Of a stretch of DNA of 64,000 nt, positions 12,249 to 53,500 are shown piece by piece. Source of the DNA: Rhizobium sp. C4. GTDB taxonomy: Bacteria > Pseudomonadota > Alphaproteobacteria > Rhizobiales > Rhizobiaceae. Made by a program: the position numbers and the translations under genes. The stretch covers positions 124,001 to 188,000 of the forward strand of contig NZ_JAJNCX010000010.1 in the NCBI RefSeq assembly GCF_021026315.1. Direction: 5' to 3'. The number at the start of each line of letters is the position of its first letter. Positions within the stretch are counted from its first letter, which is position 1. The notes under the pieces were generated by a model. It was given only the letters and a program-made list of their open reading frames with translations, did no database searches and was not told the origin of the DNA.

Positions 12249-12263
12249 TTAAAGCCCCTTTAA
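12249..12263 (-). promoter_or_regulatory. CtrA-binding box upstream of ftsK
   Basis: The sequence is TTAA-N7-TTAA exactly (TTAAAGCCCCTTTAA), followed by CC as in the extended consensus, 86-100 bp upstream of the ftsK ATG. A GAATC methylation site is at 12165-12169. The motif matches the known alphaproteobacterial CtrA consensus; binding is inferred. Confidence 0.7.
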
Positions 12264-32231: not shown

Positions 32232-32254
32232 CCAGACTTCTCAGTCATCTGGGC

Positions 32255-32311
32255 CCATTTTAGCGACTTATTTTACGTGGCTGCAAGCCGGCCGGCAAAT
32301 CACCACGAATT
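32255..32311 (-). promoter_or_regulatory. SAM-II riboswitch (metA leader)
   Basis: The minus strand carries the conserved SAM-II blocks in order: CGTGGTGATTTG, CCGGCCGGCTTGCAGCC, ACGTAAA, then AAGTCGCTAAA. GTGG and CCAC pair for the P1 stem and the 3' part forms the pseudoknot. Known to bind S-adenosylmethionine and switch off metA in alphaproteobacteria. The 3' end is about 80 bp upstream of the start codon. Confidence 0.92.
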
Positions 32312-32344
32312 CCAGAGTCTATTTAGTCTTAACGTGACGAAGAA

Positions 32345-37355: not shown

Positions 37356-37459
37356 ACCGGCCCCACCTCACCTTGACGCACCTGCGTAAGGCACACCCAC
37401 CGCGTCCGCCCCACAAAAACCTTGTCACAATTCCCGCCAGCCCTTACATGTCAAAGCGC

Positions 37460-37552
37460 TCTAACGGGGTGCTGTTTCGTCTGAAATGGCTGAGAGGCTT
37501 CAACGCCAACCCGAAGAACCTGATCCGGTTAGCACCGGCGGAGGGATTAGAC
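37460..37552 (+). promoter_or_regulatory. TPP riboswitch (THI element) of thiBPQ
   Basis: The conserved THI blocks are present in order: CGGGGTGC, TGGCTGAGAGG, then ACCCGAAGAACCTGATCCGG and TTAGCACCGGCGGAGGGA. GCGCCT at 37566-37571 can pair with AGGCGC at 37598-37603, which includes part of the thiB ribosome site (AAGGAGG), so translational sequestration is the likely output. Confidence 0.93.
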
Positions 37553-37605
37553 GGCTCGAGATCAAGCGCCTCTTCCCCTGTATTTAAAAACGCAAGGAGG
37601 CGCAG

Positions 37606-44591: not shown

Positions 44592-47500
44592 TTACTTCTT
44601 CATCTGATCCTTGAGGATCGCTAGCTTGGCGAAGGGTGAATCCGGATCGATCGGCTTTTCCTTGCGCGGCGGTGCGGCGCTCATGCCCTTGTTGCGGTCA
44701 TGCTGCGGCTTGCCGCCGCCGCCGTGACGGTTCTCGTCGCGGTCGCGTTGCGGCTTGCCACCGGGCTTGCCGCCAAAGCGGTCCTTGCGGTCGCCCTGGT
44801 TGCGGTCGCCTTGCGGACGATCACCCTGCGCGCGTTCACCCTGGGCGCGATCGCGATTGCCGCCACGGTTTGCACCCTGGTTGCGGTCGCCCCGGCCTTC
44901 ACCACGGCCTTCGCCGCGATTTTCGCCACGGTTCTGGTCGCGGGGACCTCGGTTGTCACGGCGCGGGCCGGCGTTCTGGCGCGGTTCGCGCTCGTGGCGG
45001 CCACCCGGACGCCACAGCAGAACCGGCTTGGGCGCTGTTTCTTCGGCAGGGGCTTCACCACCGGCTGCAGCGGCCTCTGCCGGTGCAGCTTCGGAAGCAG
45101 TCGTTTCAGACGCTACAGCTTCCGACGGGGCGGCTTCTGCGGGAGCTGCTGCCTCTGCCGGCTGTTCATCATGTTCGCTGCCAGCGTCGCTGTCTGCGGT
45201 GTCGTCGTCGGAGGCGGTCTCAGCGGATGCCGGTGCTGCCGCGCTCTCGGCCGGAGCCGCCTTGGCGTCCTGCGTGGCGAGGAAGCCTGCGGCCTCTTCG
45301 GCAGTCACGCTGTCGGCGCGATAGCCGAGACCCTTGAGGATCTCTTCCATGTCGTCCGGGGTCGCACCCAGAATGGAGAGCATGGCCGGCGTCGTTACGA
45401 AGCGGCGGCCGTCATAGGCGCCGTCCGGACGCTTGCCGGTTTCCGGCTTCCACTGGAGAAGCGGACGGATGAGGTCTGCCAGACGCTCCAGGATATCGAT
45501 GCGCACGGCGCGCTTGCCGAGGAAGCGGAAGCCGGCGAGGCGATAGAAATTGCGCTCGATGGCGTGATCGGTAACGACCGAGGTGCGGCCGGCGGCGAGA
45601 ACCGGGATCAGGTCGCCATAGCCCGGCTTGTCCATGGCGTCGTTCTTCAGCGCCCAAAGCAGCGTGATGAGTTCGGCCGGCGCCGGCTTCAGAAGTGCCG
45701 GCATGAAGACGTGGTAGGCGCCGAAGCGGACGCCCAGCTTGCGGAGGGCTGCGCGGTGCTCCTGGCTCAGCGATTTCACCTCTTCGGCGACGTCGCGGCG
45801 GAAGAGCACGCCGAGATTTTCGACGAGCTGGAAGGCGAGGCCCTTGGCCAGACCTTCAAGGTCTTCGGCGCGGGACAGATCGTCCAGCGGCTTCAGAACC
45901 GTTGCGATGTGATGATTGACGAAGCGCTCGATGCGGGCCGCGACGTGATCGCGGGCCGGGCCGGTCAGCTGCTCGTCCGCGAGAAGGATGACGCGCGGAT
46001 GCAGGATATGATCGGTCGAGGTGAGGCGTGCCACGGGATCGCCGAGCCAGCGCACGACGCCTTCCGACGTCAGCGCAAGATCGCCATTGCCGGCGGCATG
46101 GAGCCGGGCGGCACGCGCCTCGAATTCCAGCGCCAGCGCCTTCTGCGCTGCCGACAGCATCGCCTTGGCTTCCTGACCTTCCGCCGCGTTTGCCAGTGTG
46201 AACCGGAAACCGGCCAACTGTCCGACGTGGTGGCCCTCGACGAAGACGTCACCGTTTACACTGATTTCTGCTTCCAGCATCGCATTCTCTCTCAAGCGCT
46301 TCATGAGCACAGATGTCCTGCGATCAACAAAGCGTTTCGTCAACCTCTCATGCAGCGCGTCGGATAGCCTATCCTCGATTTCGCGCGTCTTTTCTTGCCA
46401 GTGTGTCGGATCGGCAAGCCATCCTGGTCGGTTCGACACATAGGTCCAAGTTCTGATTTGCGCAATGCGTGCCGATAAACTGTCGATTTCCCCATCGGTC
46501 CGGTCCGCGCGGCGGACCTGTTCGGCCATGTAATCCTCGTTGACATGACCGCGGCGGACAAGATCGGAATAAATGGTCGAAATGATGTCGGCGTGCTGCG
46601 CAGGGGCAATCCTGCGGTAATCGGGAAGTGCGCAGGCCTCCCACAATGTCTCGACGCGTGCCGGGCGGTCGGCAAGATCGCGAATCTCCGGAAGCGCGGC
46701 CAGGAAGTCCAGCGCCTGCAGGTCGACGGCGGGGAGTGCCCGCGTCAGGCCGTGCATGGTGGGGGCGGCATTCAGACTTTCCTGCAGCGCGCGGATCGAG
46801 GCATAGTCCACCGCCTTCGACCGCCACTGCAGGACCTTCACCGGATCGAAGACATGGGCCTCGATGCGCTCCACCAGTTCGTCGTCAAAGGGGGCGACCT
46901 GACCGGTCACACCAAACGTGCCGTCATTCAGGTGACGTCCGGCGCGGCCGGCAATCTGGCCAATCTCGCCGGGATTGAGATTGCGATACTGATAGCCATC
47001 GAACTTCCGGTCCTGGGCGAAGGCGACATGGCCGACATCGAGGTTCAGGCCCATGCCGATCGCGTCGGTGGCGACGAGAAAATCGACATCGCCCGACTGA
47101 TAGAGCCCGACCTGGGCATTGCGGGTGCGGGGCGACAACGCGCCGAGCACGACCGCTGCACCGCCGCGCTGGCGGCGGATCAGCTCGGCAATCGCATAGA
47201 CCTCTTCGGCCGAGAAGGCGACGATGGCCGAGCGGGCGGGAAGGCGGGTGATCTTCTTCTGCCCGGCATAAAGCAGCTGCGACAGGCGCGGGCGCTCGAC
47301 AATGGTGATGCCCGGCAGGAGGTGGCTGAGGATCGGCGCCATGGTGGCGGCGCCCAGAAACAGCGTTTCCTCGCGGCCGCGCAGATGCAGGATGCGGTCG
47401 GTAAAGATATGGCCGCGCTCAAGATCGCCGGCGAGCTGCACTTCATCGATCGCCGCAAAGGCCGCCTTCGTCTCGCGGGGCATGGCCTCGACCGTACAGA

Positions 47501-47744
47501 CGGTGAAGCGCGCGTTGGGCGGCGAGATCTTCTCTTCGCCGGTGACGAGCGCGACATTGGCCACACCCACACGTTCGGCAACACGGGTATAGACCTCGCG
47601 GGCCAGAAGCCGGAGCGGCAGGCCGATGACGCCCGAACCGTGCGCAACCATGCGCTCGATGGCGAAGTGGGTCTTCCCGGTATTGGTTGGTCCGAGCACT
47701 GCAGTCACGCCGCGGCCGCTCAGGATCATGGGCTTGATGGTCAA
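44592..47744 (-). CDS. SUV3-type RNA/DNA helicase with RG-rich C-terminal tail
   Basis: Large superfamily-2 helicase of 1,050 residues, closest in motif style to mitochondrial SUV3. Motif I GPTNTGKTHFAIERM (about 18-32), motif II AIDEVQLAGD (DEVQ rather than DEAD), motif III GAATM, motif VI QIAGRAGRH. From about 820 the chain is low complexity: an alanine/glutamate/serine stretch, then roughly 110 residues of repeated R-D-N-R-G, E-N-R-G-E-G-R-G and G-D-R-N-Q units, an intrinsically disordered RNA-binding type. The first start is TTG; an ATG five codons on (MILSGRG) is equally likely. Alphaproteobacterial homologues exist; a role in RNA turnover is inferred. Confidence 0.88.
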   Translation of the reverse strand: MTIKPMILSGRGVTAVLGPTNTGKTHFAIERMVAHGSGVIGLPLRLLAREVYTRVAERVGVANVALVTGEEKISPPNARFTVCTVEAMPRETKAAFAAIDEVQLAGDLERGHIFTDRILHLRGREETLFLGAATMAPILSHLLPGITIVERPRLSQLLYAGQKKITRLPARSAIVAFSAEEVYAIAELIRRQRGGAAVVLGALSPRTRNAQVGLYQSGDVDFLVATDAIGMGLNLDVGHVAFAQDRKFDGYQYRNLNPGEIGQIAGRAGRHLNDGTFGVTGQVAPFDDELVERIEAHVFDPVKVLQWRSKAVDYASIRALQESLNAAPTMHGLTRALPAVDLQALDFLAALPEIRDLADRPARVETLWEACALPDYRRIAPAQHADIISTIYSDLVRRGHVNEDYMAEQVRRADRTDGEIDSLSARIAQIRTWTYVSNRPGWLADPTHWQEKTREIEDRLSDALHERLTKRFVDRRTSVLMKRLRENAMLEAEISVNGDVFVEGHHVGQLAGFRFTLANAAEGQEAKAMLSAAQKALALEFEARAARLHAAGNGDLALTSEGVVRWLGDPVARLTSTDHILHPRVILLADEQLTGPARDHVAARIERFVNHHIATVLKPLDDLSRAEDLEGLAKGLAFQLVENLGVLFRRDVAEEVKSLSQEHRAALRKLGVRFGAYHVFMPALLKPAPAELITLLWALKNDAMDKPGYGDLIPVLAAGRTSVVTDHAIERNFYRLAGFRFLGKRAVRIDILERLADLIRPLLQWKPETGKRPDGAYDGRRFVTTPAMLSILGATPDDMEEILKGLGYRADSVTAEEAAGFLATQDAKAAPAESAAAPASAETASDDDTADSDAGSEHDEQPAEAAAPAEAAPSEAVASETTASEAAPAEAAAAGGEAPAEETAPKPVLLWRPGGRHEREPRQNAGPRRDNRGPRDQNRGENRGEGRGEGRGDRNQGANRGGNRDRAQGERAQGDRPQGDRNQGDRKDRFGGKPGGKPQRDRDENRHGGGGKPQHDRNKGMSAAPPRKEKPIDPDSPFAKLAILKDQMKK

Positions 47745-47897
47745 ATCGATGTTCCGGGCGTTGCCGGCCTTGCTGGTCTCTCTCGCTCAGAGACATGCCC
47801 GCTCGGGCGTTGAAGTGCAAGGGCGAAGGTGATGTGGACTGGCCCTGCAGATGGCGTTTCGAACCGCATTCTGCAAGCCTCGGAACAGCTTGGGAAC

Positions 47898-48374
47898 GAA
47901 TCGGAGACGAATCGATGACTCCGTCGCGTTCCTTTTATGTTCTATACCATATCTAGTTTGAATTGCCGATTCGACTCCAGATCGTGAATCGAGATGGGGA
48001 ATCCGGATTCGACTCGCGATGGAGGGGCGGAATCGGCTGAAAGGGCTGGCAAGCGGCTTTGGTGTTTATGGTTAATGGATTGTTAATTTTGGGCATTTTC
48101 GGCGCCTTTCGCGCCTCGCGTTAACATCTCGACCAAAGACGGAACGAATCATCGACGAATCAGAGATCTGTTCATGTTGCGGTTCTGTTCTCCACAAGAT
48201 GTGGTGTGTCCTGTGTCTCGCCGAGGATAGAAACGATTCGGCAGCGTTCCTGTTTCCTGTGCCGAACGAGCCTGCGTTAACGATTTGAAGCCGCGTGTTC
48301 ATCCCTCGGTAAGACCTGCGGAATGTTAACGTTTCGAGCCTCGAACCAAAGCGGGAACGAATCACAGACGAATC
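47898..48374. promoter_or_regulatory. GANTC (CcrM methylation site) array
   Basis: Fifteen GANTC sites start at 47898, 47909, 47917, 47968, 47973, 47986, 47999, 48006, 48011, 48030, 48146, 48157, 48235, 48359 and 48370, where fewer than two would be expected by chance at this GC. Three pairs are 11 bp apart in the context GGAACGAATC-N3-GACGAATC-like, and GATTCGACTC occurs twice. It fills the 816-bp gene-free gap between the helicase and a thioesterase. Confidence 0.85.
48072..48086. promoter_or_regulatory. CtrA-binding box in the GANTC-rich region
   Basis: TTAATGGATTGTTAA is an exact TTAA-N7-TTAA. Further TTAAC half-sites lie at the GTTAAC hexamers at 48120, 48276, 48325, 48432 and 48479; the one at 48432 continues as TTAACCAT. 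Confidence 0.65.
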
Positions 48375-48420
48375 ACCGACCTGTCTCCTTTCCCGGTTTG
48401 TTCACCGCAAGATGTGGTGT
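48120..48420. repeat. two related ~90-bp direct repeats
   Basis: Copy 1 (48120-48210) and copy 2 (48325-48420) share, in order: GTTAAC, TCGA, CCAAAG, GGAACGAATC-N3-GACGAATCA, CTGT, CGGTT, GTTC and CAAGATGTGGTGT. A partial third copy starts near 47891. Each ends with an imperfect CCACAAGATGTGG palindrome. Confidence 0.75.
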
Positions 48421-48560
48421 AAAAACAATTTGTTAACCATAGCAAATGGTCTGCGGAATGGCCCTTGACCGCTCGTTTGTTAACCTTTGCGCTTGCGGCG
48501 GCGGGCGATCTGTTTTCTGGTTGCCGGCAGTGGAATCAGGATGAAACTGGGGAGGGAACC

Positions 48561-48974
48561 ATGGAGCTCGTCACCTATCGCGGTGTTGTCTATCCCGTGC
48601 AATGCGATGTCATGGGGCATATGAATGTGCAGCATTATATCGGCGCGTTTGACCAGGCCGGCTGGCATCTGGTCGCGGCCATCGGCTACAAGCCGTCCTG
48701 GCTGAAAGAGCGCAACTGGGGCTGGGCGGACCGGCGCTACGAGATCGATTTCATCGACGAGCTGCCGGTGGGCAGCCTGTTCGAAGTGCGCAGCCGGTTC
48801 CTGAAGGTCGGGCGCACGTCGCTGACGACGCATCATGCGATGTATAACTCGGAGAAGGGGACGCTCTCGGCGGAAATCACCGCCGTGACGATCCTCTTCG
48901 ATCTCGTGGCGCGCAAATCGACGCCGCTGCCGCCGGAAATGGTCGAGGGGGCGAAGGCTTATCTGGTGGATTAA
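48561..48974 (+). CDS. acyl-CoA thioesterase, 4HBT hotdog family
   Basis: A 137-residue single-hotdog protein. The catalytic-type segment QCDVMGHMNVQHYIGAFDQA matches the 4-hydroxybenzoyl-CoA/YbgC family (Asp, then H-x-N). GGGGAGGG precedes the ATG (MELVTYRG), so the longer open frame upstream, which enters the repeat region, is rejected. Its promoter must lie in or next to the GANTC/CtrA region. Downstream are convergent PHB genes; substrate unknown. Confidence 0.86.
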   Translation: MELVTYRGVVYPVQCDVMGHMNVQHYIGAFDQAGWHLVAAIGYKPSWLKERNWGWADRRYEIDFIDELPVGSLFEVRSRFLKVGRTSLTTHHAMYNSEKGTLSAEITAVTILFDLVARKSTPLPPEMVEGAKAYLVD

Positions 48975-53204: not shown

Positions 53205-53367
53205 TAAGACTTATCGAAGCGATGCACCTCCTCCCGCAGAGCTTCGTGTGACCGGGTCCTACTCCTCCTCCCAGGGACCCCGTCGGAACAGCGGCACTCC
53301 TCCTCCCAGTCGCTGTTCGGTTCTTTTCGAAAAGCCTGTCGCACCTCCTCCCGCGGCAGGCTTTTTC
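53205..53367 (+). ncRNA. cluster of four anti-SD 'cuckoo' stem-loop RNAs
   Basis: Four consecutive hairpins each expose CCTCCTCCC: 53215-53246 (motif 53227), 53254-53280 (motif 53264), 53286-53318 (motif 53299) and 53331-53364 (motif 53344). The last is followed by TTTTT and acts as terminator. CCUCCUCCC is complementary to Shine-Dalgarno sequences. Location 160 bp after a DUF1127 gene matches the CcsR/cuckoo RNA family of Rhizobiales and Rhodobacterales, processed from the DUF1127 mRNA. Confidence 0.9.
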
Positions 53368-53500
53368 GATTCTGGAGGGCTTTCCCGACTTCATCCAGGC
53401 ATTTCCGGTTTTCGCCGCGGTTCCGCTCGGCAAACAAAAACGCGGCCTCCGCTTTCCGGAAGCCGCGCTCGAGGCATGCGCAAGACCGTTGAGGCCTGCG

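Follow-up and report, generated by a model that had tools for sequence, protein, structure and literature searches.

Regulators of the cell cycle and of nucleotide supply

GcrA is a master cell-cycle activator, and NrdR is a dATP-sensing repressor that represses at high dATP and whose palindromic box has the consensus acaCwAtATaTwGtgt. The alphaproteobacterial replication origin, oriC, lies next to hemE (Caulobacter Cori type), and SUV3-type helicases are best known from mitochondria. In the openly available portions of the literature on these regulators, the GcrA motif is given as YGAKTCG and GcrA targets are described as vastly different among close relatives (PMC7987155), and the ctrA P1 promoter provides a precedent in which GcrA is placed beside the -35 element and the adjoining GANTC (PMC3667746). 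NrdR boxes are mostly set apart by a spacer of 15-16 b, DNA with a single box being bound 530-1000 times more weakly by the E. coli protein (PMC12051234), and the alphaproteobacterial LexA box is given as GTTCN7GTTC (PMC12700426).

The locus described here appears to bring several of these motifs together. It is read, with moderate confidence, as a multi-copy promoter-operator array of a divergent SUV3-type helicase gene, ancient and predicted from its motifs to respond to GcrA/CcrM, NrdR and possibly LexA.

A tandem array beside a SUV3-type helicase gene

The window, that is, the whole 64-kb stretch of DNA analysed (1-64000), contains a gap between two genes that the initial annotation had identified correctly: a SUV3-type DExQ helicase gene (44592..47744, - strand; PF22527 DEXQc_Suv3, 1.5e-26), which is the usual partner of the element and is transcribed away from it, and a 4HBT thioesterase gene (48561..48974, + strand; PF13279), whose place is taken by other genes in relatives. 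Repeat analysis resolves this gap into three same-orientation copies of a unit of about 76-90 b with the core GGAACGAATC-N3-GACGAATC. Unit 1, the helicase-proximal copy (47873..47960, + strand; core GAAC at 47894), has 69/88 columns invariant across five congeneric genomes, unit 2 (48121..48208, + strand; core GAAC at 48142, with TTAAC at -21) has 73/88, and unit 3, the distal copy (48334..48421, + strand; core GAAC at 48355), has 68/88. On the + strand, unit 1 is laid out as GGAAC-N6-GGAACGAATC-N3-GACGAATC-N3-GACTC ... GTTC-N7-GTTC ... CCATATCTAG, and unlike most other units it lacks TTAA at -21. The general order on this strand, taken from alignments of 67 Rhizobiales units and 31 class matches, is TTAAC; GAaC-N7-GAAC; gaA.C..G.cCGAATC-R-cT.Ac; TTC-N7-GTTC; CWANATNTNG(TG). 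Of the 68 references proposed for the model alignment (A2), 67 were used (L113 was dropped; L064, L072-L075, L115, L118, L123 and L124 were left out), and the unit tables allow at most one mismatch and exclude L002-L009. Read on the helicase-sense strand, the unit consists of one or more NrdR-type boxes, a GAAC-N7-GAA arm, YGATTCG and TTYGTTC-N16/17-GTTAA, followed by the gene.

The fifteen GANTC sites within 477 b that first drew attention to the gap are there (starts 47898-48370, the last site ending at 48374), and the 801-b gap at 47760-48560 holds 16, against 5.0 under a first-order Markov null of the gap (sd 2.2, maximum 15 in 2000) and 3.0 in mononucleotide shuffles of the same segment. 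The excess is therefore real, but it amounts to some 3-5 fold by these nulls and not to the ninefold first estimated; it is larger when compared with the surroundings than with the composition of the gap. Nor does the same density recur in the other regions surveyed, since along 140 kb of this contig beyond the window no stretch of 477 b has more than five GANTC, and the densest stretches in samples from two relatives (260 kb and 400 kb) have five and seven. Over the whole window, GANTC is strongly depleted (96 vs 350 expected). The five GTTAAC hexamers of the gap (0.08 expected) were likewise recovered. GANTC pairs spaced 11 b apart occur three times in 64 kb, all inside the gap and all on the + strand, at 47898..47913 in unit 1 (CGAATCR, equivalent to YGATTCG on the helicase-sense strand), 48146..48161 in unit 2 and 48359..48374 in unit 3. 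What had been missed is that these pairs are the cores of the three repeat copies, and the GANTC cluster is dense because the unit of about 90 b is present three times. Nor had there been any mention of the NrdR-type boxes, of the GAAC/GTTC arms or of how the copies are spaced.

The TTAA-N7-TTAA reported as a perfect CtrA box does lie at 48072..48086, a second one being found at 12249 of the window. This full CtrA-type box is present in four of the five aligned congeneric genomes; among 12 further loci listed only L017 has it. CtrA was rejected as the core signal, given that its full box is a genus-level and not a class-wide trait. Directly after unit 3, AAAACAATTTGTTAACCATAGCAA (48422..48445, + strand; 21/24 columns invariant within the genus) includes TTAACCAT, which we take to be of the CtrA half-site type, and several other genera have text resembling AAAACAATTTGTTAACCATAGCAA just after their distal unit.

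Conservation and distribution

The 851-b gap aligns over its full length with four of five congeneric genomes at 79-81%, and piecewise with the fifth. Invariant columns within the genus make up 77-83% of the units, 46-50% of the sequence between them, 65% of the helicase side and 58% of the thioesterase side. Chance clustering or a decaying repeat could draw on the fact that the units are repeats, but it is refuted by this contrast between units and their surroundings and by class-wide conservation with invariant bases, and is given next to no credence.

In the 5.2 Mb of its own genome, the exact core is confined to these three sites, and the sequence model finds no further unit even at E<=10; run on 33 pattern loci alongside four controls, the nrdJ, recA, gcrA and hemE loci, it matched none of the controls. 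In the family, the core (at most one mismatch) was found in 229 of 346 genomes, this one included, and in 78 of 109 genera, at 1-4 copies; a reversed control pattern hit one of the 346. In a sample of 297 genomes from the order, 57 had it; 12 of the 57 belong to the same family, which contributed 13 genomes to the sample. For the class, the unit model matched at least 34 of 337 genomes, this one included, the strict filters making this a lower bound, and a class-level DNA pattern gave at least 120 loci in titled records, among them Parvibaculum, Stappia, Roseibium, Kaistia, Methyloligella, Prosthecomicrobium, Brevundimonas, Peiella and the OCS116 and PS1 clades. The position beside the helicase gene, whose conservation the initial annotation had proposed to check, is kept in sister species and across the class.

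The most constant trait of the unit is the base that follows CGAATC. It is a purine in 126/126 listed pattern elements and 175/175 Rhizobiales units, 301/301 in all, a tally that counts related genomes, near-duplicates included, more than once, compared with 173/325 (53%) in the background; the 31 class matches agree without exception. A purine here is what the degenerate Y of YGAKTCG, the GcrA motif, calls for (PMC7987155). GcrA is encoded in all 27 element-bearing genomes tested (of 34 matching), by a test that was also positive in a Sulfolobus control. A CcrM-type RAMA domain is encoded in 26 of the 27, the single miss being a 92% complete assembly; the genome studied here encodes both. Among class genomes without a unit match (20 of 303 were tested), 10 of 20 encode GcrA, a lower share than among the element-bearing genomes, though its presence in half of them also speaks against a GcrA-specific reading. 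The earlier suggestion of a cell-cycle or methylation-linked control element thus gains from the conservation of the unit, its invariable purine and the GcrA and RAMA counts; the element does not look like the origin, as GC skew argues against it.

Copy number and spacing

Loci carry one to five copies of the unit, all in the same orientation. The five tandem units of Prosthecomicrobium hirschii (L310 6404-7490) are the most seen, and one locus (G002:C10:155458-158720) has four units over 3.3 kb, the last three lying more than 1 kb apart each. First-interval spacings were compared for 86 genomes or loci under 42 labels, with an exact check on listed pattern loci under 16 genus or family labels. 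Within a genus, the first spacing either differs by 1-2 b or jumps, and the six changes of at least 4 b measure 8, 9, 10, 10, 10 and 11 b, which is about one helical turn. By the exact check, 14 of 15 two-copy loci of Stappia, Roseibium and Pannonibacter have a spacing of 223-226 b, the remaining one having 216 b; the spacing in L280 is 225 b. Steps of one turn would be tolerated by a complex that bridges units lying on the same face of the DNA. Pooled over all spacings, periodicity is strong but inflated by kinship, its best period is 11.5-11.7 b and not 10.5 b, and distinct values alone give P = 0.105; because of this confounding, the argument for phasing rests on the within-genus jumps. Second intervals are less regular, with within-genus changes of 8, 9 and 13 b in two genera, and isolated unit spacings measure 131, 164 and 173 b; both count against phasing.

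Linkage to the helicase gene

The gap was initially said to match the genes on neither side, a view that finds no support: the element is tied to the helicase gene, and it is the thioesterase side that varies. Among the 120 listed loci (of at least 120) found by DNA pattern alone, 104 adjoin the helicase gene, and in 103 of these the element lies on the opposite strand. The helicase is likewise within about 3 kb in 105 of 114 element loci of a first set, several of which share a genome, and the class search has it at 27 of 29 loci. In some marine lineages, the distance from the core to the helicase start, which is extrapolated, is as short as 31-33 b. It is because of this orientation lock, the short start distance in marine lineages, the -35/-10-like words and the regulator motifs that the promoter-operator reading is preferred. 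TTAA stands at -21 from the core in 121/175 Rhizobiales units and a TTAA-like word at -21/-22 in 54/116 listed class elements (L207, L262, L291, L299 and five Caulobacterales-type loci set aside), and in none of the five Caulobacterales-type loci. Against the promoter-operator reading, the promoter scan gave no sigma-70 consensus promoter in the gap, and unit 1 of the genus lacks the -10-like TTAA.

A further objection comes from the 16 listed loci without the helicase. Seven are records that end less than 460 b away on the helicase side; the other nine have room for it and keep the unit without it, namely L226, L233, L297, L306 and L300, which are of the Caulobacterales type, and L207, L262, L291 and L299. 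In all nine, a leftward ORF of at least 100 aa turns up within 500 b by mechanical search, so that a leftward target is possible there too, although several of these ORFs need not be genes. In L226, L233 and L306 a tRNA-Lys gene intervenes and an ORF judged by eye to encode an Hpt-type protein lies beyond it; also by eye, the leftward ORF is AraC-like in L300 and 450 aa long in L299. In L262 and L291, both MAG contigs, the unit lies between longer convergent ORFs, and the short leftward ORFs may not be genes.

These loci bear on the main rival explanation, in which the element is an autonomous chromosomal nucleoprotein site for replication timing, checkpoint or segregation, a phased complex with cell-cycle proteins that is tethered to the helicase gene by happenstance. 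Such a site would account for retention in the nine helicase-free loci, two of them convergent gaps, for the single locus in the genome studied, for one to five same-orientation copies, as many as five in P. hirschii, and for spacings that shift by about one helical turn. It leaves unexplained why 103 of 104 listed loci keep one orientation towards one gene, and the NrdR-type boxes and the -35/-10-like words suit transcription better; we regard it as unlikely.

The right flank is variable, with genes for the thioesterase, phaB, DUF3309, acyl-CoA dehydrogenase, rpmB or tRNA-Arg. A record labelled as the 489-kb plasmid p3 of Rhizobium sp. NLR16a (L001, NZ_CP072868.1) carries the array together with the helicase and beta-ketoacyl-ACP reductase / acetyl-CoA acetyltransferase genes. 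This is the only plasmid record, and the element has the same helicase there; a plasmid origin was rejected. In L226, L233, L297 and L306, three of the four from Brevundimonas or Caulobacterales by title, the unit stands by an ORF of 61-65 aa and tRNA-Arg(CCT), and in L171 and L176 the helicase, the unit and tRNA-Arg(CCT) are consecutive; comparison of the two arrangements indicates that Caulobacterales kept the unit while what lay to its left was replaced. The small protein (MGHA..DAQA..FR..LRRS...) is encoded between element and tRNA gene, for example at L226:1317-1499 and L233:2438-2620.

It can also be asked whether the array is the promoter region of a transcript that runs rightward, away from the helicase, and specifies a small RNA or a small protein. 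The related ORF that starts about 160-170 b to the right in L226, L233, L297 and L306 would agree with this, as would the direction of the NrdR pair, which faces right as at nrdJ, and the position of rpmB, which lies right of the element and on its strand in 56/56 listed loci having rpmB. However, right-hand neighbours vary widely, ungapped comparison of Rhizobiales units reveals no conserved sequence right of the boxes, and there is neither an Rfam match in the gap nor covariation in the unit; this explanation is rated slightly less probable than an autonomous site. The small ORF itself was discarded as a universal target, occurring in only 4 of 120 listed loci. A structured RNA or sRNA was rejected: Rfam returned nothing in the gap at gathering or at E<=1, none of five predicted pairs in the folded unit alignment shows a compensatory change, and ungapped comparison shows no sequence conservation past the unit. 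Elsewhere in the window, Rfam matches an ar14 sRNA (53244-53368, + strand), a TPP riboswitch (37455-37563, + strand) and a SAM_alpha riboswitch (32239-32316, - strand).

Candidate NrdR and LexA sites

Counts of boxes and arms for the class come from 80 of the at least 120 pattern loci. A palindromic NrdR-type box ends the unit in 69/82 class elements, compared with 5.7% of shuffles. In the window, this box is CCATATCTAG in unit 1 (47947..47956) and CAAGATGTGG in units 2 (48195..48204) and 3 (48408..48417). A second box is counted 76 times in 141 Rhizobiales units, 61 times at +31, 10 times at +30 and 5 times at +32 (other offsets at most 5 times each), and 16 times at +31 among the 69 class elements, an offset that matches the published NrdR spacer of 15-16 b (PMC12051234). 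The window has a pair in unit 1 alone, at +30, formed with the degenerate box CCAGATCGTG from 47977; no second box was seen in units 2 and 3, which, being single-box, weaken the NrdR part of the preferred reading. The position of the boxes upstream of the promoter-like words is odd for a repressor.

The same arrangement recurs upstream of nrdJ in this genome, as CTATATTTAG-N21-CAAGATACAG. That region (L165:460-800) contains DnaA-box-like TCCACA repeats together with NrdR-type sites, one of them a 31-b pair, and some relatives (L038, L039, L105-L107) have similar TCCACA repeats after their distal unit. No ribonucleotide reductase gene stands by the element, the PF02867 matches of the genome being all in one gene on contig C5.

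The GAAC-N7-GAA arms resemble the LexA box. The left arm has GAAC in 94/175 Rhizobiales units and 50/84 class elements; in the right arm, the first half-site GTTC is found in only 39/175 and 6/84, and AAA follows GAAC in 116/175 right arms. The figures for the left arm and for AAA would be the basis for seeing in GAAC-N7-GAAC and the inverted TTC-N7-GTTC arms LexA boxes of a locus induced mainly by damage, an SOS operator with the published box GTTCN7GTTC (PMC12700426) as its model. In addition to the scarcity of the right-hand GTTC half-site, an exact GTTC-N7-GTTC is missing from the recA locus in this genome, and the word "helicase" is absent from the main text of PMC12700426; that the locus is mainly an SOS operator is very unlikely. 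The weaker claim, a LexA contribution to the promoter-operator array, is a weak one, since the right arm is usually imperfect. Co-evolution of arms within a locus was rejected in Rhizobiales (0.390 observed vs 0.398 shuffled); in the class set it is slight (0.355 vs 0.315 shuffled, 1/500 shuffles reaching the observed value).

Distance from the replication origin

An oriC function is argued against by the GC skew of the genome, which is positive on both sides of the element; ahead of hemE it is mixed, and beyond hemE mostly positive. The skew samples of relatives (G001, G019) are noisy, that of G001 being positive also far left of hemE. In five of seven genomes tested, both loci are on one contig, separated by 74, 107 and 110 kb within the genus (three genomes) and by 249 and 483 kb outside it (two genera). 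A distance that is not fixed and the lack of a skew switch at the element in its own genome also count against an autonomous chromosomal site. Directly upstream of hemE, at the putative oriC (L128:1177-1750, equivalent to G000 C2:61177-61750), there is a smaller GANTC cluster with DnaA-type boxes.

Proposed mechanism and significance

The promoter-operator array can be given a working model, in which GcrA binding, NrdR binding and looping of copies are inferred. TTYGTTC and GTTAA would serve as the -35 and -10 elements of a weak sigma-70 promoter that would fire only with GcrA on CcrM-methylated GANTC, so that its output would track the passage of the replication fork. The NrdR boxes would add repression at high dATP, the GAAC/GTTC arms might add LexA (SOS) control, and copies on one DNA face would cooperate through looping or cooperative binding. 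In this way, the array would link helicase expression to replication, dNTP supply and perhaps DNA damage. The element probably ties the helicase gene to DNA replication, since it carries recognition motifs for GcrA and NrdR.

A broader proposal makes the element a chromosomal control locus beyond a promoter, a phased array in which GcrA on methylated GANTC, NrdR and possibly LexA would form one complex sensing fork passage, dNTP and damage, and acting usually via the SUV3-type helicase; this is considered unlikely. If it were true, the bacterial relatives of the mitochondrial SUV3 helicase would be implicated in DNA replication or repair. The element also offers a direct route to testing the role of this helicase in bacteria, DNA replication included. 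A non-coding layout of about 90 b kept base by base across alphaproteobacterial orders is rare, and the parts of this one point to GcrA and NrdR at one address. A candidate GcrA target of class-wide extent would be surprising, because GcrA targets are reported to differ between close relatives (PMC7987155).

Comparison with known systems

No description of the element was found in the open PMC text consulted, and as far as seen, each of its parts belongs to a known kind; what is new is how they are combined, how deeply the element is conserved and that it forms a phased array. Its likeness to GcrA/CcrM-dependent promoters (Caulobacter, ctrA P1) lies in GANTC with YGAKTCG near promoter-like words, in genomes encoding GcrA and a CcrM-type protein; it differs in its rigid class-wide layout of about 90 b, repeated 1-5 times, in its NrdR-type boxes and, in Rhizobiales, in having two GANTC 11 b apart per unit, and the case made here is one of sequence. 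With the NrdR operators of ribonucleotide reductase genes it shares palindromic boxes paired 31 b centre to centre, but no nrd gene adjoins it, the first box is fused to the GcrA/GAAC module and distal copies are often single-box. The LexA boxes of Alphaproteobacteria (GTTCN7GTTC) are matched in kind by GAAC-N7-GAAC arms with an 11-b period on both sides of GANTC, yet the arms are often imperfect, form an inverted pair and come in up to five tandem units. Like the repABC intergenic regions, described as GANTC-rich control regions in the available part of PMC11514494, the locus is rich in GANTC, but it is without rep genes. Finally, it resembles the hemE-linked oriC of the Caulobacter Cori type in combining GANTC with CtrA-type sites and, near some distal units of other genera, DnaA-box-like repeats, and departs from it in lying 74-483 kb from hemE, in showing no change of skew sign and in having one near-DnaA-box only in the gap.
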